Positions 1 to 15,003 of a DNA stretch of 64,000 nt are shown here, piece by piece. This stretch comes from Alphaproteobacteria bacterium (GTDB lineage Bacteria; Pseudomonadota; Alphaproteobacteria; Elsterales; Elsteraceae). Under the pieces are notes generated by a model. It was not told the origin of the DNA and searched no databases. It saw nothing but the letters and a program-made list of their open reading frames with translations. A program made the translations under genes and the position numbers. The stretch spans positions 1 to 64,000 of the forward strand of contig RDXE01000037.1 in assembly GCA_004292755.1 (NCBI GenBank). Reading direction: 5' to 3'. Every line of letters begins with the position of its first letter. Position 1 is the first letter of the stretch.

Positions 1-968
1 AGGTGACCGCGGTGCTGGTTGATCCCTCAGGGGATCGCATCGCCACGCTGGTTGGCGCTTCAGACAAGGGCAACATCGTGCTGGCGGCCGCGCGGCGGCG
101 GCAGACAGGCTCCCGCACCGGCTGGATTGGTGTGCAAGGCGCCCTGGTGATGCCCGCACCCGGCTGGCTGGTCGTGGTGGGCACGCCCGAGATGGCGACC
201 TTGGATGTTATTCATCGCCTCGCAGATCGCCTGACAAACGTGATGATCGGCTTGGTTGCGATCTCTGGTAGTGCCGTGATGCTCTATGGCTATCGTATGC
301 GCGCGGCGTGGCAGCCGGTGTTGAGTGCCTTACGCCAGCGCACCAGCAAGGCCCATTCCCCCTCGCATGCAAGCGGGTCGCCCGCACCCCATGCGTCACC
401 GATGGTTCGGGAAGCTGCTGACGCCCTGCGCTTGATCGATCACCTGGGACGAGAGGATGTGCGGTCGGGCAGTGTCGCAGAAGTGGAGGGGGCCCGCAGT
501 CGCGTGACGGAGGCCCTGTTGTCTCTGGCTGGCCTCGCGCGCGAGCGGCATGTCCAGATCGTCGCCGTCTGGCAGATGCGGGACGCTGTCGGCATGGATG
601 CCGACCGGTTGGCCGCCCTGATCAGCCATCTGGTGGCAGGGGCACTGTTGACCGCGCCAGCGGGGGGCACAGTCGGGGTTCTCACCACCCGATACCAGGG
701 CGGCGTCTGCCTAGCCGTCGCTGCCATGGAGGGTCGGGTAACGCCCCAGGAAGTGGATCGCTTGCTGGATGATCTGGGACCTGTCCAGCCCGACCCCTCG
801 CCCGACCGATTGGGGTTGATGCTGGCCCGCCAGGAGGTGCCGATTCACGCAGGCTCCGTTGTCGTTCATCGCGGACGGTCTGGCTGGCCCTGTGTGGTTG
901 CGCGGCTGGGCAAAGCCGCGACAGCAGATTCCACGTCCACTGCCACCGATGTAACGATCATTGCGTGA
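1..968 (+). CDS. Membrane sensor, degenerate histidine-kinase-like (3' part of gene)
   Basis: The reading frame is open from the left edge (first possible start GTG at 3) and stops at 968, so the gene probably begins outside the window. The visible 321 residues hold what looks like the end of an extracytoplasmic sensor domain (to about residue 75), one membrane helix (about 78-96), and a cytoplasmic part of about 220 residues. Residues 195-235 resemble the start of a HATPase_c fold, but the usual N-box is replaced by HLVAGA and there are no clear glycine boxes, so catalysis is doubtful. I infer a sensor pseudo-kinase. The family is not certain. Confidence 0.5.
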   Translation, partial: VTAVLVDPSGDRIATLVGASDKGNIVLAAARRRQTGSRTGWIGVQGALVMPAPGWLVVVGTPEMATLDVIHRLADRLTNVMIGLVAISGSAVMLYGYRMRAAWQPVLSALRQRTSKAHSPSHASGSPAPHASPMVREAADALRLIDHLGREDVRSGSVAEVEGARSRVTEALLSLAGLARERHVQIVAVWQMRDAVGMDADRLAALISHLVAGALLTAPAGGTVGVLTTRYQGGVCLAVAAMEGRVTPQEVDRLLDDLGPVQPDPSPDRLGLMLARQEVPIHAGSVVVHRGRSGWPCVVARLGKAATADSTSTATDVTIIA

Positions 969-1047
969 GAAGTTCGGATGGGAAACCTTCGCCTCAGAGT
1001 AGAGTTGGCGGTGATCCGCCGAATGTCTGGACAACCCTGAACAGGGC

Positions 1048-1059
1048 GCGAAATTTCGC
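1048..1059. promoter_or_regulatory. Palindrome upstream of MarR gene, candidate operator
   Basis: GCGAAATTTCGC is a perfect 12-bp palindrome, about 70 bp upstream of the MarR-family start at 1127. It overlaps a second inverted pair, GGCGCG (1045-1050) with CGCGCC (1064-1069). MarR proteins bind such palindromes and often regulate themselves. The operator role is inferred from position only. Confidence 0.4.
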
Positions 1060-1126
1060 TTGTCGCGCCGGTGCAATCAACCTATGTCACCCAGCGGTTG
1101 CTTCACTTTTGCGAAGGGGATCAGCT

Positions 1127-1558
1127 GTGACCAGCGATCGCCGGACGGTTCAGGCTCAAATTCTGGCATCTATTGAAGCGTTGACCCGGAGTCTTCACGC
1201 CGCTGGTTTCGCGGGTGGGTTGAACCCAGCACAGTGGGCCGGGCTGCGCTTTGTCGGGGCGGAGGGTGCAGAGGCGCGCACCGTTGCCAATTTTGCGCGC
1301 CACCATCGCGCAACTACTGGTACCGCGTCCCAGACGATCGACGCGCTGGTCCGCAAGGGCTTGGTTCAGCGCAACGACAACCCCGCGGATCGGCGTAGTG
1401 CACTGTTGACGGTCACCGAGGCTGGCGCATCGCTGTTGAGCGCCGACCCCATTCGGCGGCTCGAGCCAGTGTTGAGCGGCTTGGCCGATCAAGATGTCAG
1501 CGTCCTCAATCACCAACTGGTTTTGTTGGCCCTGGCCTTGGAGCCGCCAACCGCGTGA
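1127..1558 (+). CDS. MarR-family transcriptional regulator
   Basis: This is a winged-helix regulator of 143 residues, a usual MarR length. The open frame extends up to 965, but the GTG at 1127 has AGGGG eight bases upstream and removes an unrelated N-terminal stretch, so it is the preferred start. The recognition-helix region (TGTASQTIDALVRKGLV) and the following wing (NPADRRSALLTVTEAG, with the family's DxRS/R pattern) are clear. The gene stands alone, with a candidate operator palindrome upstream and a strong inverted repeat just after its stop. The ligand and targets cannot be read from the sequence. Confidence 0.82.
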   Translation: MTSDRRTVQAQILASIEALTRSLHAAGFAGGLNPAQWAGLRFVGAEGAEARTVANFARHHRATTGTASQTIDALVRKGLVQRNDNPADRRSALLTVTEAGASLLSADPIRRLEPVLSGLADQDVSVLNHQLVLLALALEPPTA

Positions 1559-2181: not shown

Positions 2182-2213
2182 TTGACCTAAGAAAATCAGC
2201 CGGTAAATTACCG
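2182..2213 (+). promoter_or_regulatory. Promoter with overlapping palindrome for the fused hydroxylase
   Basis: TTGACC (2182-2187), a 16-nt spacer and TAAATT (2204-2209) resemble a sigma-70 promoter reading toward the gene at 2252. The inverted repeat CGGTAA-A-TTACCG (2201-2213) covers the -10 element, a good position for repression by the divergently encoded MarR-like protein. Confidence 0.5.
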
Positions 2214-2251
2214 TGTAGTTTTGGGTGTGTCGAGATCGGGTGGAGGGGCGG

Positions 2252-4507
2252 ATGAACATCGATGTGGTTGGCGGCGGGCCTGCCGGGCTGTTTTTCGCGA
2301 TCCTGCACAAGAAGCAGTTCCCCTCCGATCGCATCGTGGTGCGGGAGCGCAACCGTCCGAATGATACTTTCGGCTTTGGCGTCGTCCTCTCCAAGGAGAC
2401 GTTGGGCAATATCCGCGTGGCTGATCCCGAGAGTTACGCGGAGATTGAGCGTAACTTCGCCTATTGGGACGATATCTTTACTCGGTTCCGCGGCCATACC
2501 ATTCGGTCGACCGGGCATGGATTCTGTGGCATCGCCCGCTTGACATTGCTGGAAATCCTGCAGGCACGCGCCGAAGCCTTGGGTGTTGAGCTTGCCTTTG
2601 AGACTGAAGACCCTGGTGTGGCCGTTCCCCGCTCGGCCGATCTGGTGGTCGCGGCCGATGGGGTGAACTCCGCCATTCGGGAGACCTGGGCGCATGAGTT
2701 CCAGCCGCAGATCGACCTGCGACCGAATAAATTCTGCTGGATGGGTTCCACTCTGCCGTTACCTGGGTTCACCTTTCTGTTCAAGGAAACCCCTCACGGA
2801 ATCTTCAATATTCACGCCTATCAATTTGCTGCGGGCAAGTCGACCCTGGTGGTTGAAACGACGGGGGAGTGTTGGCAGGCAAGCGGCCTTGCCACCGCCA
2901 GCGAGGCGGACAGCAAGGCCTTCGTGGAGGCGTTGCTGGCCGAGGACCTCGACGGTCACCCGGTGTTGACCAACCGCTCGGTTTGGCGAAACTTCCCGAC
3001 CATCCGGTGCAAGCGCTGGCACCACGCCAATGTCGTGCTGGTGGGCGACGCAGCGCACACGGCGCACTATTCCATCGGCTCGGGCACCAAGCTCGCGATG
3101 GAAGATGCGATTGCGCTGGCGACAGCCGTAGCCCAGCGCTATGGCGATGTGCCCGGCGCCTTGGCTGCCTATGAGACCGCTCGCCGGGATGAGGTGTCGC
3201 GCACCCAGCATGCAGCCGAGGTCAGCCTTGGCTGGTTTGAGCATGTGCGCCGCTATTGGGATATGCACCCGATCCAGTTCAATTTTTCGCTGTTGAGCCG
3301 CTCCAAGCAGATCACTTTTGAAAATCTGCGCCTGCGCGATCCAGCGATGATTGAGGATGTCACCACCTGGTACGCAGCGGACCAAGCAGCGCGCGAGGGC
3401 GTTGCCACTGCCCCCAGCACGCCACCCATGTTCCTGCCGCTCACGCTGCGCGGCTTGACGCTGGGCAACCGCGTGGTGGTGTCGCCGATGTGTCAATACT
3501 CAGCCGTCGAGGGCAGCCCGACCGATTGGCATCTGGTTCACCTGGGCGCCCGCGCAACCGGTGGGGCAGGGCTGGTCGTGACCGAGATGACCGCCCCCAG
3601 CGCCGATGGCCGAATCTCCCCTGGCTGTACCGGGCTGTACAGCGATCAGAACGCGGCTGCCTGGCAGCGCGTCGTGCAGTTTGTCCACGAGCACTCTGAG
3701 GCGAAAATCTGCCTGCAACTGGGCCACGCGGGCCGTAAGGGCTCCACCCAGCTGGGCTGGGAGCAGATGGACCGGCCGTTGCCAGCGGGCAATTGGCCCA
3801 TCCTGTCCGCCTCCGCCATCCCGTACCTCCCGGAAAGCCAAGTTCCGCGAGAGGCGAGCGAGGCAGACCTCGCGCGGATTATTGCCGAGTTCCAGGCGGC
3901 AGCCCGGCGCGCTGCCAGCATTGGCTTTGACATGCTGGAGGTGCATATGGCCCACGGCTACCTGCTGGCATCGTTCATCTCGCCACTTACCAATCAGCGC
4001 CGGGATGGCTATGGCGGCAGTCTGGAGGCGCGCATGCGCTTCCCGCTGGCGGTGTTTGATGCCGTCCGCGCTGTTTGGCCGGAGGACCGCCCGATCTCCG
4101 TGCGGATTTCCGCCACCGATTGGGAGCCCGAGGGCGTGTCCGGCCCCGACTCGGTGGAGATCGCGCGGATGTTGAAGGCCCATGGCTGCGACATCGTCGA
4201 TGTCTCGACTGGCCAGACCACGCCCAATGCCAAGCCCATCTATGGCCGGATGTACCAAGCAGGCTTCGCCGAGGCGATCCGCACCGAGGTGGGCATCCCG
4301 ACCATTGCCGTCGGCGCGATCACCAGCGCGGACCAAGTGAACACACTGCTCGCGTCCGGCCGCGCCGATCTCTGCGCGCTCGCCCGCCCGCATCTGGCCG
4401 ACGCCGCCTTTACGCTGCACGCAGCCGCCCACTACGGCGTCGACGTGCCCTGGCCCAAGCAGTACCTCGCCGGCAAGGCCCAAGCGATGGCTCTGGCCCG
4501 GCGCTGA
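2252..4507 (+). CDS. Bifunctional aryl-CoA monooxygenase / OYE-type flavin reductase (2-aminobenzoyl-CoA or salicylyl-CoA hydroxylase type)
   Basis: This is a fused enzyme of 751 residues. The first ~380 are a FAD-dependent aromatic hydroxylase: dinucleotide fold near the N-terminus (VVGGGPAGL) and the second FAD motif VLVGDAAHTAHYSIGSGTKL. The remainder is an old-yellow-enzyme-type NADH:flavin oxidoreductase: CLQLGHAGRKGS, EVHMAHGYLLASFISPL and the barrel end IPTIAVGAITS. This order is known from 2-aminobenzoyl-CoA monooxygenase/reductase and bifunctional salicylyl-CoA 5-hydroxylases, which attack CoA-activated aromatic rings. ATG 2252 follows a GGAGGGG site and starts directly at the FAD fold. 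No CoA ligase is adjacent, so the exact substrate is unresolved. Confidence 0.85.
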   Translation: MNIDVVGGGPAGLFFAILHKKQFPSDRIVVRERNRPNDTFGFGVVLSKETLGNIRVADPESYAEIERNFAYWDDIFTRFRGHTIRSTGHGFCGIARLTLLEILQARAEALGVELAFETEDPGVAVPRSADLVVAADGVNSAIRETWAHEFQPQIDLRPNKFCWMGSTLPLPGFTFLFKETPHGIFNIHAYQFAAGKSTLVVETTGECWQASGLATASEADSKAFVEALLAEDLDGHPVLTNRSVWRNFPTIRCKRWHHANVVLVGDAAHTAHYSIGSGTKLAMEDAIALATAVAQRYGDVPGALAAYETARRDEVSRTQHAAEVSLGWFEHVRRYWDMHPIQFNFSLLSRSKQITFENLRLRDPAMIEDVTTWYAADQAAREGVATAPSTPPMFLPLTLRGLTLGNRVVVSPMCQYSAVEGSPTDWHLVHLGARATGGAGLVVTEMTAPSADGRISPGCTGLYSDQNAAAWQRVVQFVHEHSEAKICLQLGHAGRKGSTQLGWEQMDRPLPAGNWPILSASAIPYLPESQVPREASEADLARIIAEFQAAARRAASIGFDMLEVHMAHGYLLASFISPLTNQRRDGYGGSLEARMRFPLAVFDAVRAVWPEDRPISVRISATDWEPEGVSGPDSVEIARMLKAHGCDIVDVSTGQTTPNAKPIYGRMYQAGFAEAIRTEVGIPTIAVGAITSADQVNTLLASGRADLCALARPHLADAAFTLHAAAHYGVDVPWPKQYLAGKAQAMALARR

Positions 4508-4662: not shown

Positions 4663-5064
4663 TTAGGGTGAGGGGCGACCCGGATGGGCATCCGGCGCGC
4701 AGAACAGACGGTAGAGAGTTTCCATCAGCACCCGCACTTCGGGGCTGTTCAGGCTGTAGTGGATGGTCTGGCCCTCGCGCCGGGTGGCAACGAGGCCCTG
4801 AAGGCGCATCCGCGTTAGATGTTGGGAGGCGGCGGGGAAGCTTAAGCCTGCTTGCTCCGCCAGTTCCCCGGCTGTGCACTCCGCTCGCATCAGGCTGCAC
4901 AGGATCAACAAGCGCTTCGGATTGGCCATCGCAGATAGCAAGTCTGCGACATGGCTAGCCTTTGCGGACAAGAGGTCGGAGGCGTCTTCCAGCAGAGGCT
5001 CCGACGGCGCGGCGCCCGTGTCCGGCGCGAGATCGCTCAGCGGATCAGTGGACAACAGGGTCAT
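4663..5064 (-). CDS. bigR: ArsR-family persulfide-sensing repressor, BigR/SqrR type
   Basis: This 133-residue ArsR-family winged-helix protein carries an extra ~35-residue N-terminal arm. The core has NPKRLLILCSLM, a recognition helix near AASQHLTRMRLQGLV and a wing ending IHYSLN. Cys56 (LILCSL) and Cys122 (RLFCAP) are 66 residues apart. That equals the spacing of the two cysteines that form the persulfide-dependent polysulfide bridge in BigR and SqrR, and their local context also matches. Cys63 is extra. The gene is divergent from a sulfide-detoxification operon that BigR proteins typically control. It probably represses that operon and leaves DNA when sulfane sulfur accumulates. Confidence 0.88.
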   Translation of the reverse strand: MTLLSTDPLSDLAPDTGAAPSEPLLEDASDLLSAKASHVADLLSAMANPKRLLILCSLMRAECTAGELAEQAGLSFPAASQHLTRMRLQGLVATRREGQTIHYSLNSPEVRVLMETLYRLFCAPDAHPGRPSP

Positions 5065-5139
5065 CGCGGTCCTTCGGAGGGCAGGGGTGGACGAAGCAGC
5101 CGCGGCGACCCGCCGCGCGCTTCATGGTTACCACAACGA

Positions 5140-5188
5140 TTGACAATTAAGCAAATGAGCAAATACTAAAGCCCGTTCGACCCTGGAG
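5140..5188 (+). promoter_or_regulatory. Promoter and strong RBS of the persulfide operon
   Basis: TTGACA (5140-5145), a 16-nt spacer and AATACT (5162-5167) form a good sigma-70 promoter in an AT-rich patch of an otherwise GC-rich region. GGAGGA at 5185-5190 precedes the ATG at 5195. The AT-rich spacer contains a short direct repeat (GCAAAT, GAGCAAAT). It is the likely binding region for the divergent BigR-like repressor, but I see no clean palindrome. Confidence 0.55.
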
Positions 5189-5194
5189 GACCCC

Positions 5195-5407
5195 ATGACC
5201 AACATCGGAACCATCGACCGTGTTGCCCGTTTGGCGCTCGGCCTTGTGCTGTTGGGACTCTCGTTCTTGACCAATGTGATGATCAATGCCCTCGGGGGCT
5301 TGTGGTGGCTGGCTGCTGTCGCCGGTGTGGTGATGGTTGGCACGGCAGCGATCAAGTTCTGCCCGCTGTATCGGGTGTTTGGTCTTCGCACCTGCCCCAT
5401 GCCTTAA
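5195..5407 (+). CDS. DUF2892 (YgaP-like) membrane protein
   Basis: A small membrane protein of 70 residues with two hydrophobic helices (about 12-30 and 33-52), followed by KFCPLYRVFGLRTCPMP. The beginning MTNIGTIDRVARLALG and the CPLY motif are typical of the DUF2892 family, the same module that anchors the YgaP rhodanese. It is the first gene of the sulfide operon, behind a strong ribosome site. Its two C-terminal cysteines could handle sulfane sulfur, but that is speculative. Confidence 0.85.
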   Translation: MTNIGTIDRVARLALGLVLLGLSFLTNVMINALGGLWWLAAVAGVVMVGTAAIKFCPLYRVFGLRTCPMP

Positions 5408-5419
5408 GCGGAGGCTCTG

Positions 5420-5848
5420 ATGGTGGAGACAGCCTTCACACCGTGGTCAGCCTTGGCTGGCGGTGTGCTGATTGGCCTGTCAGCCGTGGTGCTGATGGCA
5501 ACTGTGGGCCGCATCGCCGGGATCAGCGGCACCCTGCTGCGGGTGCTGATGCCGACCGACCGGCGCGAGTCCCTCGGGCGATTGGTGTTTGTCGTCGGTC
5601 TGATCGCCGCTCCGGCGATTTGGATGGCCGTCACCGGGACCACCATCGCCCAATCGCCGCCAGACGCGGGTAGCCTCGTGGTGATCGCGGGTCTACTGGT
5701 TGGGTTTGGCGCAGTGCTGGGCAATGGCTGCACCAGCGGCCATGGCGTCTGCGGCTTGGCCCGGCTGTCTCCACGCTCCGCTGTGGCAGTGGGGGTGTTC
5801 ATGGCAACGGCACTGGCAACAGTGGCCATTGCCCGCCACGTGATCTAA
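5420..5848 (+). CDS. YeeE/YedE-family sulfur transporter, first half
   Basis: A 142-residue integral membrane protein with about four helices. The signature GNGCTSGHGVCGLARLS (about residues 100-116), with two cysteines, matches the YeeE/YedE (SoxT/PmpA-like) family that moves thiosulfate or sulfane-sulfur compounds. Full-length relatives contain two such halves. Here the second half is the separate next gene, 18 bp downstream. In known bigR operons the same pair lies beside the persulfide dioxygenase. Confidence 0.85.
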   Translation: MVETAFTPWSALAGGVLIGLSAVVLMATVGRIAGISGTLLRVLMPTDRRESLGRLVFVVGLIAAPAIWMAVTGTTIAQSPPDAGSLVVIAGLLVGFGAVLGNGCTSGHGVCGLARLSPRSAVAVGVFMATALATVAIARHVI

Positions 5849-5866
5849 CGAAGGGACACCGCAGCT

Positions 5867-6325
5867 ATGGCTTTCCTCGCCTATGGTGTGGCCGGGGTGA
5901 TGTTCGGCCTTGGCTTGATCCTTGCCGGTATGACAGACCCTGCGAAGGTTTTGAACTTCCTTGATGTTCTTGCGATTCCGGCGGGTACCTGGGATCCCAG
6001 TCTGGCGCTGGTGCTGGGTGGGGCGACAGGGACGACGCTGGTCGGATATCGTCTGGTGCTGGCGCGCACGGCGCCATTGTTTGCCCCGCGCTTCGATCTG
6101 CCGGGCACGCAGAAACTGGATGCGCGGTTGATCATCGGCTCTGGCCTGTTTGGCATCGGGTGGGCGCTGGCGGGCCTGTGCCCCGGCCCGGCGATTGTTG
6201 GCATGGCGCTTGGCGCGCCCGGTGTGTTGCTGTTCGTGCCAGCAATGCTGGTCGGGATGGTGGCCGCCCGCCTGACCACCAATGCCCTGGATCGCAGGGT
6301 TCAGCGCACCCTCAAGCCAGCCTAG
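5867..6325 (+). CDS. YeeE/YedE-family sulfur transporter, second half
   Basis: A 152-residue membrane protein of the YeeE/YedE group (DUF6691-like). It starts with GVMFGLGLILAGMTDPAKVL and carries the half-motif GLCPGPAIVG around residue 105, with a single cysteine in a membrane helix. It probably pairs with the preceding protein to form one transporter for reduced sulfur. An SD-like AAGGGA lies before the ATG. Confidence 0.85.
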   Translation: MAFLAYGVAGVMFGLGLILAGMTDPAKVLNFLDVLAIPAGTWDPSLALVLGGATGTTLVGYRLVLARTAPLFAPRFDLPGTQKLDARLIIGSGLFGIGWALAGLCPGPAIVGMALGAPGVLLFVPAMLVGMVAARLTTNALDRRVQRTLKPA

Positions 6326-6397
6326 GGCGGCCTGCCGTGCTGGCTGGTGAAGACCCCACCATCACCAACAAACACCATCAGGAGAGGGACCACTGCC

Positions 6398-7285
6398 ATG
6401 ACCATGACCATGCCCGTCTCTGATCTGAAGCCCGAGGTCACTGCCTTTTTTGACCCGGATACCTTCACCATCACCTATCTGGTGCGTGATCCGACGTCCA
6501 ACGCCTGCGCGATCATCGATCCTGTCCTGGACTTGGACTATGCCGCAGGGCGGACTGCGACCAAGTCGGCCGATCGCGTGATCGATGTGGTGACATCGGC
6601 GGGGTTGACCCTGGACTGGATCATCGAAACCCACGTCCATGCCGATCATTTGACCGCTGCGGCCTATCTGCGCGACCGCCTGGGGGGCCGGGTTGGCATC
6701 GCGCGTCAGGTGACGGTGGTCCAGACGGTGTTCGGCGAGGTGTTTGATGAAGGGCCGTCCTTCCGCCGCGATGGCAGCCAGTTTGACCATCTGTTCGACG
6801 AGGGCGAGACCTACCGCATTGGCAACATGACTGGTGTCGCCTGGCACACTCCTGGTCACACGCCTGCCTGCATGACCCATGTGATCGGCGATGCCGCGTT
6901 TGTTGGCGACACGCTGTTCATGCCGGACATGGGCACAGCACGGGCCGATTTTCCCGGTGGCGATGCCCGCCAGTTGTATCGGTCCATTCAGCGGGTGCTG
7001 GCGCTGCCGCCGGAAACCCGGCTGTTCATGTGCCACGACTACGCCCCCGGTGGGCGGGAGTATCGCTGGGAATCGACGGTGGCGGCCGAGCGCGCGGCCA
7101 ACATCCACGTTCGCGACGGTGTCGATGAGGATGCCTTTGTTGCCATGCGCACCGCCCGCGATGCCACGCTGGACATGCCGCGCCTCATCCTGCCGTCGCT
7201 GCAAATCAACATGCGTTCCGGCCTGATGCCGCCGGAAACTCCAGCGGGGCGGCGGTTCCTGAAGGTGCCGCTGAACCACTTTTAG
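6398..7285 (+). CDS. blh: Metallo-beta-lactamase-fold persulfide dioxygenase (ETHE1/Blh type)
   Basis: This 295-residue enzyme has the metallo-hydrolase motif THVHADH (His79, His81, Asp83, His84), a later HTPGHTP histidine, DTLFMPDMGTARADFPGG and MCHDY. The pattern fits ETHE1-type persulfide dioxygenases, non-heme iron enzymes that oxidise glutathione persulfide to sulfite. No rhodanese domain is attached, as in Blh proteins of bigR operons. ATG 6398 follows GGAGAGGGA. Two more in-frame ATGs follow (6404, 6410), so the exact start is uncertain by a few residues. Sulfite made here could be exported by the next gene. Confidence 0.87.
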   Translation: MTMTMPVSDLKPEVTAFFDPDTFTITYLVRDPTSNACAIIDPVLDLDYAAGRTATKSADRVIDVVTSAGLTLDWIIETHVHADHLTAAAYLRDRLGGRVGIARQVTVVQTVFGEVFDEGPSFRRDGSQFDHLFDEGETYRIGNMTGVAWHTPGHTPACMTHVIGDAAFVGDTLFMPDMGTARADFPGGDARQLYRSIQRVLALPPETRLFMCHDYAPGGREYRWESTVAAERAANIHVRDGVDEDAFVAMRTARDATLDMPRLILPSLQINMRSGLMPPETPAGRRFLKVPLNHF

Positions 7286-7314
7286 GGTCATCGGACCAGC
7301 CCAGGGAGGGTGAT

Positions 7315-8100
7315 ATGCAGGATCTGCTAGCGCTGGTCGCTGGCGGCCTCGTTGGGCTTGTCCTCGGCCTGATCGGCGGTGGCGGTTCGATTCTGGCGGT
7401 GCCGCTGCTGCTGTATCTGGTTGGGATTGAAGACCCCCACCGTGCCATCGGCACGGGCGCCCTGGCGGTTGCGGCCAATGCGGCTGTCACGTTGATCCAG
7501 CATGCCCGGCGCGGCACGGTGAAGTGGCCTTGTGCCGCGCTGTTTGCGGTGTTTGGCAGCGTGGGGGCGGCCATCGGCTCCAGCATCGGCAAGCAGGTGA
7601 ATGGGCAGCAGCTTTTGTTTCTGTTCGGTTTGATCATGGTGGCGGTGGCCGCTGCGATGGTGCGCTCCCGCCAGGCGACTGGCGCGGAGGAGGTGCATCT
7701 GACCCGCCGGATGGCGCCGCGGCTGGCGGCGGTCAGCTTTGCTGTCGGCAGTGTCGCGGGCTTCTTCGGCATCGGCGGTGGGTTTTTGATTGTACCGGGC
7801 CTCCTGGCGGGATCGGGCATGCCTTTGATCAATGCCATCGGGTCGTCGCTGTTGTCGGTTGGTCTGTTCGGCTTGACCACAGCCGTCACCTACGCGCTGT
7901 CGGGGCTGGTGGCGTGGCCGATTGCGCTGGAATTCATTCTGGGGGGTCTGGTTGGCGGCTGGCTCGGCACGCGCCTGGGCGGGCGACTGGCGCAGCAGCG
8001 CACCACGTTGACCCGAGTATTCGCGGGCGTGGTGGGGGCAGTTGCCGTGTACATCCTGTGGCGCAGTGCGCCTGCGACTTGGGCGTTGCTGATGGGTTAG
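7315..8100 (+). CDS. TauE/SafE-family anion permease, probable sulfite exporter
   Basis: A 261-residue protein with about eight membrane helices in two repeats. Glycine-rich starts GLIGGGGSILAVPLL (near residue 20) and GFFGIGGGFLIVPGLL (near 150) are the TauE/SafE signature. It ends the persulfide operon, 29 bp after the dioxygenase with a GGGAGGG site. Known bigR operons end in a similar exporter that removes sulfite. Its stop overlaps that of the convergent gene by four bases. Confidence 0.85.
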   Translation: MQDLLALVAGGLVGLVLGLIGGGGSILAVPLLLYLVGIEDPHRAIGTGALAVAANAAVTLIQHARRGTVKWPCAALFAVFGSVGAAIGSSIGKQVNGQQLLFLFGLIMVAVAAAMVRSRQATGAEEVHLTRRMAPRLAAVSFAVGSVAGFFGIGGGFLIVPGLLAGSGMPLINAIGSSLLSVGLFGLTTAVTYALSGLVAWPIALEFILGGLVGGWLGTRLGGRLAQQRTTLTRVFAGVVGAVAVYILWRSAPATWALLMG

Positions 8101-9335
8101 CCCGCCAGAGATCGGTTGTATTGCGCAGTGATCCAGGGTGTTAACGCTGGCAGGTCCGGCACCATGCCCAGGCCCGGCGAGGCGGGCAGGCGATAATCCC
8201 CAGCGACAAGGCTGCCGGCACCCAGCACCAGGGTGCGCAGGGGGTTCGGATTGCAATCCACCTCCAGCCAACCATCGCCGCCAACGGCGGCCAGCAGATG
8301 GGCGGAGTGCGCAAGTCCAATGCCGCCGCCCAGCCAATGCGGGCAATAGCGCAGGCCGCGCGCAACCACCTCCTGCGCGACGCGCAAGCATCCGGTTACA
8401 CCGCCCCACTTGCCAACATCGGGCTGAACAATCGTCAGAAGATGCTGCGACAGGGCGGCATCGAACTCAGCCCCGCGCAAATTCTCGCCTCCAGCCAGGG
8501 GCAGTGGTGCTGCGTAGGCAAGCCGTCGCCAGTGATCGAGGGGGCTATCCACTGGCATCGGTTCCTCCAACCAGCCGACGCCCAGATCGGCCAGGGCGAC
8601 TGACATGTGGGCAGCCTCCGGCAAGTCCCACGCTTGATTGGCGTCGGTGAACAGCTCGCAACTCGCGGGCAGTGCTGCGCGCACCGCTGCCACCCGTTCC
8701 AAGTCGCGCTCGCGCCCAAACCCGAGCTTCAGCTTGACCGCACGAAACCCGTCACCCACGGCACTCACCGCCGTCGCAACCGCACCAGCGGGGTTAATCC
8801 CGCTGGCATATGCGCGCACCACGCCGTGGTGACCGCGGCCACCCAGGGCGCGCCACAACGGGGTGCCATAGTGTTGCGCTGCAAGATCCCAGAGCGCTTG
8901 ATCAAGTCCGGCAATGGTCTGGGCAAATGGACCAACTTCCCCCGATTGCAGCACCAGCGCGTGGCTACGGCGGGTCAGGGCGACGAAGGCTTCTGCGGGT
9001 CCCTGCCAAGTGCGGTCAGCCAGCAACGGCGCCAGCACCTCGACGGCTAGGGCGGCGCGGTGTTCGGCCCCGACGGACGGGAAATTGCACCACACCTCGC
9101 CCCAGCCGATGGCACCGGTGCGATCCTCCACAGCGATCAGCACCATGGGCCGCTCGGTCATCACGCCGAAGGCAGTCACCACTGGCTCCGCAATGGGGAC
9201 GCGGACGGCCATGCTGCTAACCCGCCGGATCGACAGATGCTCCGCAGCAGCACCCTGGGGGATCGTGGCTGTATCCATCGCGATAGCTGACGCTGGCGCG
9301 TTGGTTGGGTCAACCCCAGCAACGATGCTGGTCAT
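8097..9335 (-). CDS. Mandelate racemase/muconate lactonizing enzyme family protein
   Basis: An enolase-superfamily enzyme of about 412 residues. The capping domain is N-terminal. The barrel carries KLKLG (catalytic Lys pair), FTDANQAW, WLEEP and GGEN (three acidic Mg2+ ligands), then QPDVGKWGG, whose Lys is typical of the muconate-lactonizing/OSBS/epimerase subgroup. It abstracts an alpha proton of a carboxylate substrate that cannot be named here. An upstream TTG at 9353 lies inside the preceding terminator's tail, so ATG 9335 or ATG 9278 is more likely as start. It lies downstream of the FecR gene but is separated from it by that terminator. Confidence 0.82.
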   Translation of the reverse strand: MTSIVAGVDPTNAPASAIAMDTATIPQGAAAEHLSIRRVSSMAVRVPIAEPVVTAFGVMTERPMVLIAVEDRTGAIGWGEVWCNFPSVGAEHRAALAVEVLAPLLADRTWQGPAEAFVALTRRSHALVLQSGEVGPFAQTIAGLDQALWDLAAQHYGTPLWRALGGRGHHGVVRAYASGINPAGAVATAVSAVGDGFRAVKLKLGFGRERDLERVAAVRAALPASCELFTDANQAWDLPEAAHMSVALADLGVGWLEEPMPVDSPLDHWRRLAYAAPLPLAGGENLRGAEFDAALSQHLLTIVQPDVGKWGGVTGCLRVAQEVVARGLRYCPHWLGGGIGLAHSAHLLAAVGGDGWLEVDCNPNPLRTLVLGAGSLVAGDYRLPASPGLGMVPDLPALTPWITAQYNRSLAG

Positions 9336-9353
9336 CGATCCCCAAAACGACAA

Positions 9354-9415: not shown

Positions 9416-10648
9416 CTATGGGCGGGTCGGCACGCTCGGAGCTGCCGGGATCGACGGTGCAGTCGGCACCGTGATGGTCGGCAATGCTGGCGGCGGCGGC
9501 GGCGACGGGGCAACCACCGGTGGCGGCGGAGTAACCACCGGCGGCGGCGGTGTCACGACGGGCGGCGGCGGAGTGACCACCGGCGGCGGCGGTGTCACGA
9601 CCGGTGGTGGCGGCGTCACCACTGGCGGCGGTGGCGTCACCACTGGCGGCGGCGGGGGTGCAGTCGGCCGCTGCGTCGTTTGCTGCACTGTGGTTTGCAC
9701 AGTGTTCTGCACTGACGGCGGGATCGGCGTTGGGGTCGCGGCAACCGGCGGAACAGTCGTGGTGCGCGGCGTAACCGGCACGGACGGCGTGCTTGGCGGC
9801 GTCGGCGTGCTGCTGGTCGTCCCACTCGTGCTGCTGATCGCGGTGTTGACCTGCTGGTTGGTCACGCGCGGAGTGGTTTGGGTTGCGGTCCCGCCGCCGC
9901 TGCCACCACCAGATCCACCCGAGGCCGAACCCTCAAAGTTGGACAGCACGTTCGCCAAAACCTGCGGTGTCGCGCGGGTTGGCGGAGTGATGGTCGGCGC
10001 ACCGCCACCAGACCCACCCGGTGTCGCTGCTGGAGCGTTTGGGCCCCCCACCGCTGGTGGAGCGGTCACGGTGGTCTGGAAGCCAGGCGGCACCACAATC
10101 GGAGCACCCGTCCCGGTTTGCACAGTCACTTGACCAAAGCCGGCTGTCACCGAGGTTTGGTTGTTCACAGCATTGTGGTTCACGCTGGCGATGCCACCGC
10201 GGATACCGATGGTGGCAACGGGGGTACGGACCGAGACACCCCCCTGCTTGGACAGCGCTCCACCAACAAACCGGACGGCGCCACTGGCCACATTCAGGCC
10301 CAGGCTGCCAGAACGGCTTTGCGGGTTATAGACGAACTCGTCGATAGTGAGCTCAGCCGACGGGCCGACTGTCACCGCCGAGCGGTCCAGGAACATGATC
10401 TGGGTCTGGCCGCCCGCATCGGTTACAATGCGCTCGCGGAACTGAACATCCTGACCAGCCTGCAGCGTGCGCCGTTCCCCTTGCGGCGAGACCGCAAAGG
10501 CTGATGGATTCACGGCACCTGCGATCCCAACCCGCTCCGCATAGGCGGGAGAGGTCAGCACCAGCGCAAGCGCTGTGAGCGACAATGCGCTGCTCAGCAG
10601 CGCACGACCGCGGCGAGTAGTAGTGGTCGGAGTTGCACCGTTGTCCAT
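9416..10648 (-). CDS. Secreted FecR-domain protein with PPPPVVT repeat tail
   Basis: The protein has 410 residues and a signal peptide (about 15-38, ending SPAYA). A FecR domain spans about 45-170, with IMFLDRSAVTVGPSAELTID and VSVRTPVATIGIRGG. A Gly/Ser/Thr-rich linker follows, then seven copies of PPPPVVT near the C-terminus. Unlike FecR of iron signalling it has no cytoplasmic anti-sigma part, and no sigma factor or TonB receptor is adjacent. ATG 10648 follows GGGAGAG. It lies 13 bp after the outer-membrane barrel gene, so the pair is probably one operon. The export route and role are unknown. Confidence 0.8.
   Translation of the reverse strand: MDNGATPTTTTRRGRALLSSALSLTALALVLTSPAYAERVGIAGAVNPSAFAVSPQGERRTLQAGQDVQFRERIVTDAGGQTQIMFLDRSAVTVGPSAELTIDEFVYNPQSRSGSLGLNVASGAVRFVGGALSKQGGVSVRTPVATIGIRGGIASVNHNAVNNQTSVTAGFGQVTVQTGTGAPIVVPPGFQTTVTAPPAVGGPNAPAATPGGSGGGAPTITPPTRATPQVLANVLSNFEGSASGGSGGGSGGGTATQTTPRVTNQQVNTAISSTSGTTSSTPTPPSTPSVPVTPRTTTVPPVAATPTPIPPSVQNTVQTTVQQTTQRPTAPPPPPVVTPPPPVVTPPPPVVTPPPPVVTPPPPVVTPPPPVVTPPPPVVAPSPPPPPALPTITVPTAPSIPAAPSVPTRP
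9510..9660. repeat. 21-bp tandem coding repeat (seven PPPPVVT units)
   Basis: About seven imperfect 21-bp units, built of GGCGGCGGCGG blocks separated by GTNACNAC blocks, code for PPPPVVT on the minus strand. The synonymous differences between units show that the array is not brand new. Copy number may still vary by slippage. Confidence 0.85.
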
Positions 10649-10661
10649 TGAGGTCTCTCCC

Positions 10662-12050
10662 TCAGAACGACCGCGTGATGCCCAGGAGCGTGCTGAAGTT
10701 CCGGTATTCATAGTTGGTCAGGCTCGAATCCACGCGGGACTGCTGGAGTTGCACGAACGTGGACCAGCCACCTTCAAGCGGCACGAGGCCTGTAACCCCG
10801 AAACGCCACTCCCGATCTTCCCGGGTGCGCCGCAAATCGACAGACGGATCTGGTTTTGAGTAATCCGTCCACAACCGTTGCGCACTGAACGTCACCGTCC
10901 ACGGCTGAGGCAGGATCGCTACAGGCGACGGGAACCGCAAGGTGTAATTGCCGCCTAAGCTGAATTCTATAAGGTCGTTGAAGTCGCGAGAGCCGCTACG
11001 ATTTCTAAATCCGAGATCAGCGCCGATGATGTTGGTTTCGGTCAGCGGCAGCCGGATGCGCGATGTGACGCCGTTCTCCCAACCGTCCAGCTGAGTATTC
11101 GTCGTGCGCGTACCAAAGTTGTTGTGAGCGCGGTAGCGGCGTTCCACCTGACCGTCAATGTATAGGCCGTTTTCAAAGGTCTTCTGGACGTCCACACCAA
11201 CACCCCAGGAGCCTTGATACCAGTGGTAATCCAAGCCAATACCGCTCACCACGACGTGAGGGCGGATGGTGAAACTGGAATCACCGGCGATTGGCGCAAA
11301 CCGCACCCCGGAGCGCACCTCGGCCAGCATCAGGTCGAGGGAGGAGAGGGCGAACTGGCGCGTGCCATAGAATACGGCGTCGGTGTCCCAAGCCGTGCTG
11401 CTACCCTCGGCCAGCGGCATCCTGTAGCGGATGGCACCGGAGACAAACAGGTTGCTGTCTGCCCGCTTGCGGGAAGAGTCGGTCGCCCGGATGTCATCGC
11501 CGAGCGAACGCAGCAGACCCGAGTTCGGGCCCGAATTGGCGTTGGACTGATAGCGGAACCCGAACGTGACCGATGCGGTTACAGGTGAGCCGCGCTCCTG
11601 ATCCGAGATCTGTGCCAGCACCTGACGCGACGCCGCGCGCACATCCTCCGGTGCCGTCGGATCATCGGCTGTCTGCTGGAGGTAGACCCGGGCGATTTCC
11701 AGCGAGTTCAGGCGGTAGTACAGCGCACCCAGCTCATAGCGCACCCGCGGCAGGTCCGGATTGAGGATGAGCAACCGCTCAAACGCCATGATGCCGCCTT
11801 CCAGGTCGCCATTGTCGATGGCAAGGCGTGCGAACTCGAAAATCAATTCAAGATTCGTGGGGTCCTGCAGCATGCGCTGGAACAACTGGTCCAGCCGCTC
11901 GCCGACAGGGCCGGTGGGTTGGGCTTGCGCCAACATCTGCACCCGCTCCACCAAAGGCTGCCGCTCCTGCGCGGTTGCAGTCTTGGAGCAGGCCAAAGCC
12001 ACGGCTGCGGCCGCAACGGACAAGGCTACCGAACGAAGAAAAGTCGACAT
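10662..12050 (-). CDS. Outer-membrane beta-barrel protein with N-terminal TPR (Slam-like architecture)
   Basis: The protein has 462 residues. A signal peptide is at about 1-28. Helical TPR-type repeats follow at about 45-145 (NLELIFEFARLAIDNGDLEG, then RVRYELGALYYRLNSLEIAR). A long antiparallel beta-strand region starts near GFRYQSNANSGPN and ends with the outer-membrane C-terminal Phe (LLGITRSF). A periplasmic TPR plus a DUF560-like barrel is the layout of surface lipoprotein assembly modifiers, but sequence alone does not prove that family. ATG 12050 is chosen because the signal peptide follows directly. The FecR gene follows 13 bp later. Confidence 0.72.
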   Translation of the reverse strand: MSTFLRSVALSVAAAAVALACSKTATAQERQPLVERVQMLAQAQPTGPVGERLDQLFQRMLQDPTNLELIFEFARLAIDNGDLEGGIMAFERLLILNPDLPRVRYELGALYYRLNSLEIARVYLQQTADDPTAPEDVRAASRQVLAQISDQERGSPVTASVTFGFRYQSNANSGPNSGLLRSLGDDIRATDSSRKRADSNLFVSGAIRYRMPLAEGSSTAWDTDAVFYGTRQFALSSLDLMLAEVRSGVRFAPIAGDSSFTIRPHVVVSGIGLDYHWYQGSWGVGVDVQKTFENGLYIDGQVERRYRAHNNFGTRTTNTQLDGWENGVTSRIRLPLTETNIIGADLGFRNRSGSRDFNDLIEFSLGGNYTLRFPSPVAILPQPWTVTFSAQRLWTDYSKPDPSVDLRRTREDREWRFGVTGLVPLEGGWSTFVQLQQSRVDSSLTNYEYRNFSTLLGITRSF

Positions 12051-12640: not shown

Positions 12641-14158
12641 TCAATCCGCAGAGTCGTCTAGATCAATCGGCAGTGACAGTCGAGCGCGACGCCGCAACCA
12701 CGGAGATGGTCGGTAGCGCGCCTCGCCAGTCAACGCAAACAACCTGTACGCCGCATCATAGACCGTTGTGATACCGAGGTCGCGCGCAATAGCGAACGGG
12801 CCTTGTGGATATCCAAGACCCAGCATCGCCGCCCGATCGATATCGGCGGGTGCTGCCAAACGGCTCTGCGCGGCATCGCAGGCAATCTGCACCATCATCA
12901 CGACAAGCCGCTGCAGGATAAAGCCCGCACTGTCGCGGATTCGGCAGACCGGCACACCGTCGCGCCGCAACAGGTTCGCGAAGGCAGCACCGATCGCTGG
13001 GTCTGCCCCCGGTGCCGCCATCACCACGCGACACCGATCCCACCGTGCCAGCGGGTCCAGAGCCACGGTGCGGGCAGGGCAGAGGGTCAGGCGTGCTGCG
13101 GCCTCGGTACAATCCAGGCCAACTGGAGTCACCAGGGCAATCGCCGCCGCCGAGGGGCGGGCGGCTGCCTCCACCTCCGCCCCGAGCGAGCGCAAGAGAG
13201 TGGTCGCCCCCAATTGCCACGGCCCGGGCTCCACCCAGATCGGCGGGAGCGGCAGGGCATGTGCCACGGGCTCGGCTGCCGAACTGGGATCGGGAGGATA
13301 GGCATAAAACCCTTTCCCCGATTTTCGTCCCAGCAGCCCCGCAGCCACCCGTGCTGCGACCCCCGGCGTTGGCTGAAAGCGTGGCTCCTGCCAATACCCG
13401 TCGTAGACTTGGCGCATCACCGCGGCCGACACATCGAGGCCGGTCAGATCCAGCACCTCAAATGGTCCCATGCGAAAGTCCAGGCACCGCGTCATCACAT
13501 GGTCGACCACCGATGGCTCGGCGACACCTTCGGCCAGGATGCGCAAGGCCTCACCGGTGTAGCCCCGGCTGAGGGTGTTGACCAGGAAGCCCGGTCGGTC
13601 CGCCACCGTCACGGGATGATGACCAAGCGCCTGGATGATCGCCGTGGCACGCGCTGTCACGGCCTGGGTTGTCCGCGCGCCGGGAATCACCTCAACCAGC
13701 TTCATCAGCGGTGCAGGATTGAAGAAGTGGAGGCCGATCACCCGCTCCGGCTGCTGACACGCTGCTGCAATGGCCGCGATGGAGAGTGAGGAAGTGTTGC
13801 TGGCCAGAATCGCCTGCGGTCTGGCCATAGCCTCTAACTGCTCAAACACGTGGCGTTTGACGGCTGCGTCCTCGACCACGGCTTCGATGGCGAGGTCGAA
13901 TGGCTCCAGCGCGGTTAAACTGTCGACTGGCAGCAGACGCGCCATGCTGGCGGTGGCGTGATCGCGCGATAGGCTGCCCTTGGCGACCAACCGGTCGAGG
14001 TGTTGACCGATCGCTGCCACGGCGTCGCTAACGGCGGCGGGCCGGGCATCGACCAGCTGCACCCGCCAGCCGTGGGTGGCGAACACCTGCGCAATGCCAC
14101 GGCCCATGGCCCCGGCTCCCACCACGGCAAGGGTGCCGGTGCTTGGTGACTGGGTCAT
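12641..14158 (-). CDS. paaH: 3-hydroxyacyl-CoA dehydrogenase (PaaH/PaaC-like)
   Basis: This 505-residue enzyme oxidises 3-hydroxyacyl-CoA with NAD+. The NAD fold begins at VVGAGAMGRGIAQVF, the catalytic His is in VIGLHFFNPAPLMKLVEV, and the 3HCDH C-terminal domain contains DLTGLDV and GRKSGKGFYAY. A second shorter 3HCDH-like domain lies at about 400-490 (GFILQRLVVMMVQ). This two-domain form is usual in PaaH/PaaC of phenylacetyl-CoA degradation. The start at 14158 lies one base after the hydratase stop, so the two are coupled. Other paa genes are not present, so a general beta-oxidation role remains possible. Confidence 0.85.
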   Translation of the reverse strand: MTQSPSTGTLAVVGAGAMGRGIAQVFATHGWRVQLVDARPAAVSDAVAAIGQHLDRLVAKGSLSRDHATASMARLLPVDSLTALEPFDLAIEAVVEDAAVKRHVFEQLEAMARPQAILASNTSSLSIAAIAAACQQPERVIGLHFFNPAPLMKLVEVIPGARTTQAVTARATAIIQALGHHPVTVADRPGFLVNTLSRGYTGEALRILAEGVAEPSVVDHVMTRCLDFRMGPFEVLDLTGLDVSAAVMRQVYDGYWQEPRFQPTPGVAARVAAGLLGRKSGKGFYAYPPDPSSAAEPVAHALPLPPIWVEPGPWQLGATTLLRSLGAEVEAAARPSAAAIALVTPVGLDCTEAAARLTLCPARTVALDPLARWDRCRVVMAAPGADPAIGAAFANLLRRDGVPVCRIRDSAGFILQRLVVMMVQIACDAAQSRLAAPADIDRAAMLGLGYPQGPFAIARDLGITTVYDAAYRLFALTGEARYRPSPWLRRRARLSLPIDLDDSAD

Positions 14159-14159
14159 C

Positions 14160-14933
14160 TCAACGGCCCTCAAAGTGCGGTGGGCGCTTGTCCAAGAAGG
14201 CTTGCATGCCCTCACGGCGGTCTTCAGTGGCGAACAGCAGCTGGAAATTGGCGCGCTCCAGTGCCAGGGCTGTCTCAAGGGCAGCATCGGCACCCGCAAG
14301 CACCGTCTCCTTGATCTTGGCGACGGCAATCGACGGCAGGGCGGCGATCTCACTCGCCAGTTCGATGGCACGGGCTTCCGTTGCGTCGGGCTGTGTGACT
14401 TCGCTGATCAAGCCGATGCGCAGCGCTTCCTCCGCCGGGATGCGCATCCCAGTCAACAACAACCGCATCGCCTGTGCCTTGCCGACTGCTCGCAGCAAGC
14501 GCTGGGTGCCACCAGCGCCGGGCATGATGCCGACCCGGACCTCGGGCTGACCAAAGACAGCCGTGGTGGCGGCTATGATGATATCGGCATGCAGCGCAAG
14601 CTCGCAGCCGCCACCCAGGGCGAAACCACGCACCGCCGCAATCACGGGCTTAGGACACCCAGCAATTCGGCCCCACAGCCGATGGGTGGCGCGCTGGATC
14701 ATGGTGACAGCATCGGCTGCCACCAGCTCGGTCAAATCTGCCCCAGCGGCAAAGGCACGATCGCTGCCCGCAATGATAATGGCCCGCACCGCTGGGTCGG
14801 CACCTGCCAGATCCACCTGATCGGCCAGTTCGGCGCGCAGCGCCATGGTCAGGGCATTCAATGCCTCTGGTCGATTCAGCCGCAACAGTCGGACGTGGTC
14901 GGCAGGGTGCTCGACCAGAACAAACTCAGTCAT
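14160..14933 (-). CDS. Enoyl-CoA hydratase/isomerase (PaaF/PaaG-like crotonase)
   Basis: The protein has 257 residues, standard for crotonases. The oxyanion-hole loops are AFAAGADLTEL and VRGFALGGGCELAL, and the catalytic glutamates fall in GGGCE and in PEVRVGIMPGAGGTQ, so hydratase activity is expected. The C-terminal helix ends EGMQAFLDKRPPHFEGR, as in PaaF-type enzymes. ATG 14933 has GGGGGG/GAGG upstream and starts directly at the fold. It is coupled to the dehydrogenase that would use its product. Confidence 0.85.
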   Translation of the reverse strand: MTEFVLVEHPADHVRLLRLNRPEALNALTMALRAELADQVDLAGADPAVRAIIIAGSDRAFAAGADLTELVAADAVTMIQRATHRLWGRIAGCPKPVIAAVRGFALGGGCELALHADIIIAATTAVFGQPEVRVGIMPGAGGTQRLLRAVGKAQAMRLLLTGMRIPAEEALRIGLISEVTQPDATEARAIELASEIAALPSIAVAKIKETVLAGADAALETALALERANFQLLFATEDRREGMQAFLDKRPPHFEGR

Positions 14934-15003
14934 CCTCGATTTCCCCCCGGCGGCGACCATGAAAGGTCGGCGGGTCCTTGCCAAGAGGGGTGAAAGCCCA
15001 TAG

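Follow-up and report, generated by a model that had tools for sequence, protein, structure and literature searches.

The 2-aminobenzoyl-coenzyme A (2-aminobenzoyl-CoA) enzyme of Azoarcus evansii combines a monooxygenase and an ene-reductase in a fused make-up. As described previously (PMC4539516, PMC8388817), this one flavoenzyme converts 2-aminobenzoyl-CoA to 2-amino-5-oxocyclohex-1-ene-carbonyl-CoA; an anthranilate-CoA ligase supplies its substrate, and the subsequent steps resemble beta-oxidation. For the plasmid pAL1 of Arthrobacter sp. Rue61a, the ligase gene neighbouring a similar fusion was reported to confer anthranilate-CoA ligase activity, with anthraniloyl-CoA present in anthranilate-grown cells (PMC3534580); judging from its position, the assayed gene is ARUE_RS22905. 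Here, we analysed a stretch of 64,000 nucleotides from an alphaproteobacterium of the family Elsteraceae (positions 1 to 64,000 of contig RDXE01000037.1, assembly GCA_004292755.1; hereafter the window), in which a gene for a fused flavoprotein monooxygenase/ene-reductase (hereafter the fusion) lies beside a divergently oriented MarR-type regulator gene. The fusion is probably a 2-aminobenzoyl-CoA monooxygenase/reductase that operates in a split pathway. The features of the locus are listed in Table 1.

The first-pass annotation had proposed a fused aryl-CoA hydroxylase/old yellow enzyme (OYE) gene whose product belongs to the 2-aminobenzoyl-CoA/salicylyl-CoA type, and both the gene and the enzyme class were borne out by the open frame, the domains and the fold matches. 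The reading frame contains no internal stops, and its translation carries the Pfam domains FAD_binding_3 (residues 101-317; 57 bits, cut-off 22) and Oxidored_FMN (residues 393-725; 221 bits, cut-off 27). The protein passed the NCBIfam model NF006101 (PRK08255), named 'bifunctional salicylyl-CoA 5-hydroxylase/oxidoreductase', with 1118.4 bits against a cut-off of 1078 over residues 1-747; membership rests on this near-full-length match over the curated cut-off together with the presence of a flavin adenine dinucleotide (FAD) and an OYE module, in that order, in a single chain. Residues G7-G9, G137, G265-A267, H565, H568 and Y570, which we take to be intact FAD and OYE site motifs, were invariant across 29 aligned sequences. 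Prediction with AlphaFold2 from 29 sequences gave a confident model, with a mean pLDDT of 90.7 and a pTM of 0.89 and with residues 267-275 below 50. Its C-terminal part matched 8pun_A (Z 52.7, 1.4 Å over 354 residues) and YqjM (1z41_A; Z 48.9, 1.3 Å over 335 residues), and its N-terminal part matched VioD (8gqr_B; Z 38.7, 2.3 Å over 348 residues). The matches also included 2-naphthoyl-CoA reductase (6qkg_B; Z 41.3, 2.4 Å over 332 residues), which acts on an aryl-CoA and shares the ene-reductase fold, whereas no solved structure spanning the whole fusion was among the matches listed. The gene adds one member to an already known enzyme kind.

The company of fusion genes in other genomes was examined in five plasmid records, selected by match, and in named loci representing the best 80 of 593 candidates, in which stretch lengths differ and neighbouring genes were annotated by tblastn. 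On plasmids of Ruegeria pomeroyi, Thalassospira marina, Deinococcus psychrotolerans and Azospirillum thermophilum, the fusion is accompanied by genes for a short-chain dehydrogenase/reductase (SDR), an enoyl-CoA hydratase (ECH), an acyl-CoA dehydrogenase (ACAD), RidA and an AMP-ligase. The first three of these loci also contain a MarR gene; that of Ruegeria pomeroyi adds kynA and that of Thalassospira marina both kynU and kynA. On the fifth plasmid, from Cupriavidus, the fusion adjoins a gentisate dioxygenase-like cupin gene (312 bits, cut-off 442) and a fumarylacetoacetate hydrolase (FAH)-family gene. At least three of eight cluster gene types were present in 49/80 named loci, and RidA, kynA or kynU in 48/80. 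When the analysis was restricted to fusions flanked by more than 8 kb on each side (n=55), at least three of the eight marker types were found within 8 kb in 40 cases, one or two in six and none in nine.

No such company surrounds the fusion in the window. It had been noted that no CoA ligase or thioesterase is adjacent, and a window-wide tblastn with reference proteins agreed: at the set identity limits, neither a ligase nor a thioesterase of the kinds present in the known clusters was detected anywhere in the window, other types not being searched. An anthranilate-CoA ligase and beta-oxidation-like partners are likewise missing next to the fusion, which is a property of the cluster and not of the enzyme, and neither a gentisate dioxygenase nor a salicylyl-CoA ligase was matched near it. 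A set of partner genes lies on another contig of the same genome (C26), in the order RidA (on the other strand), SDR, MarR, ECH, ACAD, ene-reductase (P0004) and ligase (P0003), without a fusion. The ECH passed PRK08258 (468 vs 330 bits). Within the genome, P0003 matches the benzoate-CoA ligase family best; it is 48% identical to the pAL1 ligase. On a third contig (C67), a kynureninase gene, kynU (50%; 297 bits, cut-off 246), adjoins a tryptophan 2,3-dioxygenase gene, kynA (61%). Anthranilate 1,2-dioxygenase stayed below its cut-off in the genome (87 of 672 bits), which speaks for the proposed reading, and a second fusion gene was not found. On its contig (C18), the fusion begins at a distance of 2.25 kb from the end, and the partner set occupies a stretch 11-18 kb into C26, so that ~13 kb or more would separate them even with these two contig ends next to each other. 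The genome thus very probably encodes the pathway, with its genes dispersed over three sites.

A split pathway had been suspected from the start, with a paaH/paaF-like pair on the other strand of the window as the possible second half. The split itself is supported by the set on C26, but its partner is not this pair: the two genes passed broad models (564 vs 508 bits and 381 vs 355 bits), stayed below those for PaaH (404 vs 669) and PaaF (306 vs 371), and were rejected as the missing half, the full set being on C26. The pair may have a general role in beta-oxidation.

Fusion and ligase also tend to occur together. In a sample of 60 genomes (own genome included), the fusion was found in 12 (ten full-length, two in pieces at contig ends), a P0003-type ligase (E <= 1e-100) in 12 and both in 11 (Fisher p 4e-10, not corrected for kinship). 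The two genes lie on one contig and at most 10 kb apart in 4/11 of these genomes (G011, G022, G023, G048) and on different contigs in the other seven, two of which (G003, G015) are too fragmented to judge. In G037, the fusion is still clustered with ECH, ACAD, SDR, MarR, RidA, kynU and kynA genes, only the ligase gene being located elsewhere. Among six further genomes whose fusion has no or few markers nearby, five possess a ligase 53-56% identical elsewhere (one of these genes carries an internal stop), and the sixth has one at 36%.

The proposed pathway would begin with the formation of anthranilate from tryptophan by KynA and KynU and its activation to anthraniloyl-CoA by the C26 ligase. 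The FAD module would then use O2 and NAD(P)H to hydroxylate anthraniloyl-CoA, and the flavin mononucleotide (FMN) module would reduce the resulting ring, yielding the non-aromatic 2-amino-5-oxocyclohex-1-ene-carboxyl-CoA. This reaction is modelled on that of the A. evansii enzyme, and the suggested division of labour between the modules follows from their folds. Enzymes of the C26 cluster would degrade the product, with RidA helping to remove the amino group. The MarR-type protein, finally, would repress the fusion gene, and probably its own, from an operator at ~2201-2221 until released by an aryl-CoA or aromatic ligand, a scheme patterned on CouR and FerC.

Several observations weigh against this reading of the enzyme and its pathway. 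RidA beside a fusion is no proof of an amino substrate, and the C26 RidA itself scored under its family cut-off (54 of 106 bits), as did P0003 with the benzoate-CoA ligase model (356.6 of 375). The PF04199 kynurenine formamidase was not found in the genome, other formamidase types not being searched. One genome of the sample has the fusion without a P0003-type ligase (G033), another the ligase without a fusion (G058). The window fusion is 53% identical to a gentisate-context member and 52% and 51% identical to two anthranilate-context members, and the attempt to assign the substrate by phylogeny was abandoned, as it offered a single gentisate-context row and the trees do not sort substrates. 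The genome, moreover, encodes a gentisate 1,2-dioxygenase on contig C66 (540-541 bits vs a cut-off of 442). With the equal distance to both contexts and this dioxygenase weighed against the gene company, 2-aminobenzoyl-CoA is held to be the probable substrate and salicylyl-CoA an unlikely one; the former is favoured on account of the family's gene company and of kynU and kynA in the genome.

As a salicylyl-CoA 5-hydroxylase, the fusion would hydroxylate activated salicylate at C5 to gentisyl-CoA, which would be hydrolysed and cleaved by the C66 dioxygenase, whose presence means that a salicylate route could exist. This alternative draws on the NCBIfam family name, on the Cupriavidus plasmid with its gentisate dioxygenase-like and FAH-family genes and on the reaction described in Streptomyces WA46 (PMC4600096). 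However, a gentisate dioxygenase was found in 0/80 named loci within the stretches examined, and the family name does not decide the substrate, because the same 'salicylyl-CoA 5-hydroxylase' label is attached to the pAL1 fusion beside an anthranilate-CoA ligase gene. The C66 dioxygenase, in addition, belongs to an unusual aromatic cluster (L163, 9462-13812) that has its own lone PaaA-like diiron protein (78 bits vs a cut-off of 280) and its own 2Fe-2S reductase of the BenC/PaaE-like type, as well as an SDR and a divergent MarR-like gene (identified by eye); this cluster gave no match to the reference ligases. Because the gene company points to anthranilate for many members, the salicylyl label deserves an assay; in a 2026 paper, a Massilia salicylate route was assigned via the sdgC gene (PMC13215587).

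It is quite unlikely that the fusion acts on another ring-activated aryl-CoA, such as a substituted anthraniloyl- or hydroxybenzoyl-CoA, its detachment reflecting a changed substrate and an inducer of its own. This idea would explain the lack of linkage between the fusion gene and the cluster as well as its separate MarR-type regulator, and it agrees with the divergence of the clade, whose window member shares 51-53% identity with the context-labelled references and ~60% with its nearest kin outside the genus. In a tree of 95 fusions, the window fusion grouped with that of a same-genus relative, G001 (SH-aLRT 100), then with four sequences, three of them named Burkholderiales/Burkholderiaceae (99), and then with L065 (97); addition of the pAL1 fusion in a second tree gave 100, 99 and 96. 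Members of the sister clade (SH-aLRT 99), by contrast, in part keep kynA or RidA beside the fusion: kynA and RidA are divergent from it in L067 and RidA is there in L068 and L085, with neither gene there in L066 and L065 of that clade. Across the tree, context labels, which denote neighbourhood and not substrate, were clustered (17 changes vs 29.9 in shuffles). A changed substrate would also leave the C26 cluster without its key enzyme, no second fusion being found. Hydroxylation of a free aromatic acid, as by 3-hydroxybenzoate 6-monooxygenase or salicylate 1-monooxygenase, would fit the common FAD monooxygenase superfamily and VioD, the nearest solved monooxygenase, for which no use of CoA esters is known, but is very improbable, since with those two models the fusion scored 48 vs a cut-off of 459 bits and 34 vs 446 bits, respectively, against 1118 bits with its own family, and the ene-reductase module and the co-occurrence with the ligase would be unexplained.

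Table 1. Features of the fusion locus and its surroundings (positions in the window).
Feature	Position	Strand	Remarks
Second MarR-family gene	965-1558	+	True start uncertain; adjoins regulator; 58% identical copy at same place in G001
MarR-type regulator (P0002), HTH_27 winged helix, 191 aa	1599-2174	-	Divergent from fusion; PF13463
Promoter-like TTGACC-16-TAAATT for fusion gene	2182-2209	+	Weak match, 9/12; 0.7 expected in region
Perfect inverted repeat CGGTAA-A-TTACCG (CGGTAAATTACCG), candidate operator	2201-2213	.	Covers -10 of fusion promoter
Second, overlapping inverted repeat AAATTAC-CGT-GTAGTTT, one mismatch	2205-2221	.	Repeat search
Fused flavoprotein monooxygenase/ene-reductase gene	2252-4507	+	751 aa; ATG 2252, stop 4505-4507
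N-terminal FAD monooxygenase module, VioD-like fold	2252-3316	+	aa 1-355; Pfam and fold match
C-terminal FMN ene-reductase module, YqjM/thermophilic-like OYE	3422-4477	+	aa 391-742; Pfam and fold match
paaH-like and paaF-like genes	12644-14158; 14163-14984	-	Broad subfamily models only

The divergent regulator gene was confirmed by its frame and by a PF13463 (HTH_27) match of its product, P0002, of 35.3 bits vs a cut-off of 22.2. At E <= 0.001, neither an NCBIfam family nor PF01047 or PF12802 was reported, so that the name 'MarR-type' follows from the winged helix and the gene layout. G001 has the same layout of second MarR gene, regulator and fusion, and its counterpart of P0002, at the same place, is 70% identical. 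A P0002-like regulator gene (34%) was also observed near another fusion, in a gammaproteobacterial metagenome-assembled genome (L081, 13919-14515, minus strand), between a hydrolase-like gene and RidA, a weak hint that the P0002 type may belong to the pathway. Relatives of P0002 covering 57% of the protein occur in three plasmid records; in two of these, which carry no annotation, open reading frames read by eye gave no clear link.

The palindrome had been put forward as an operator over the promoter. It is real and well placed over the -10 element, but the repeat is not kept in G001. The sequence CGGTAAATTACCG has no other match in the window with up to two mismatches (0.68 expected) and occurs exactly once in the 4.21-Mb genome. 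Base-shuffled 77-bp spacers contained a perfect repeat with arms of at least 6 and a gap of 0-5 in 4.4% of cases, and with a gap of exactly 1 in 1.0%; the repeat is thus somewhat above chance expectation. On either strand, the palindrome can also be scored as a terminator-like hairpin followed by T-rich sequence, a role that is unlikely because of its location between two divergent starts. The G001 spacer has otherwise diverged, but retains TTGAC and part of the -10 region, and 16/21 bases of the block at 2201-2221 are identical (counted by eye on the alignment). Since G001 keeps the right halves, TTACC and GTAGTTT, and loses the left arm of the palindrome, the second repeat is as good an operator candidate as the first; an operator at either site is plausible only.

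Further points tell against the proposed regulation. Besides the loss of the left arm, a repeat search of the G001 spacer with identical settings found none. Palindrome copies with up to two mismatches show no genome-wide enrichment (36 vs 169 for a reversed control), and the C26 cluster contains none. The P0002 type is rare: at E <= 1e-15 it occurs in 6/289 genomes of the class, this one included, and the next best relative is 37% identical. A regulon shared with C26 via the palindrome was considered and rejected, as no exact copy exists elsewhere and the RidA-SDR spacer of C26 shows no similar repeat by eye; likewise, comparison by eye of the regions upstream of nine P0002-like genes in other genomes revealed no repeat shared among them.

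Unlinked fusions recur in other lineages. G009 and G051 have lone fusions, and in each a separate set comprises SDR, MarR and P0004-type ene-reductase genes (69% and 77%); these splits resemble that of the window's genome. Within the stretch examined, the G009 set had no recognisable ECH or RidA; the G051 set, which runs to a contig end and has the ligase on another contig, had no recognisable ACAD or RidA. Tentatively, the dearomatising enzyme might have been cut from its cluster in several lineages, with a MarR-type regulator of its own in this genus and with an extra FadH/naphthoyl-CoA-reductase-like ene-reductase, P0004, in several of the remaining clusters; the two halves would then answer different signals and P0004 would provide a new step, a scenario that we regard as possible yet doubtful.

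P0004 itself (C26, L037, 8067-9536) is a 489-residue OYE-type protein with a cysteine motif like that of 2,4-dienoyl-CoA reductase (by eye), in which a fibronectin-III-like tail (weak match) replaces the usual second flavin domain. Its relatives were observed in the companion sets of G001, G009 and G051, in G033 (41%) and in three fusion loci (L108, L118, L120).

Downstream of the fusion, positions 4663-8100 hold a gene for an ArsR-type regulator and, by eye, two YeeE-like genes, a persulfide-dioxygenase-like metallo-beta-lactamase-fold gene and a TauE-like gene. These genes, which are not there in G001, separate the fusion from an enolase-superfamily gene of the muconate cycloisomerase/mandelate racemase type (8097-9353, minus strand; below cut-offs), whose G001 counterpart, 62% identical, is the next gene after the fusion and convergent with it. 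At 9416-10711, the minus strand encodes a FecR-like protein (named by eye) whose proline-rich tail contains repeated VTPPPP units.

The two-part enzyme kind is already known; unusual here is a gene that stands alone with its likely repressor, the rest of the pathway lying elsewhere. No title on a split anthraniloyl-CoA pathway was among the literature matches listed, which were compared by title only. Single-cluster pathway finders can miss the route in genomes with such a layout, and the database name of this family is no evidence of its substrate. The window locus offers a small test case for how a CoA-dependent pathway is regulated once a key gene has moved away.

Compared with the known systems, the locus differs in company and control. 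SdgC of Streptomyces sp. WA46, after whose function the whole NCBIfam fusion family is named, makes gentisyl-CoA on the way to gentisate, as described in PMC4600096, whereas the window gene is accompanied by neither a reference ligase nor a gentisate gene. MarR regulators of the CouR, FerC and HcaR types have palindromic operators, often a divergent gene and, in several cases, CoA-thioester ligands (PMC5487221); the window regulator passed the cut-off for HTH_27 only, matched no NCBIfam model and has a predicted ligand. The putative anthraniloyl-CoA monooxygenase/reductase of pAL1, 51% identical to the window fusion over 758 columns, is encoded in a single cluster with ligase, RidA and thioesterase-domain genes, flanked by PaaX-type regulators and with no MarR annotated, whereas the window fusion is detached and has a MarR-type regulator. 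In A. evansii, the ligase is described as lying within two similar clusters with other pathway genes (PMC8388817), whereas in the genome analysed here the fusion and its presumed ligase are located on different contigs.

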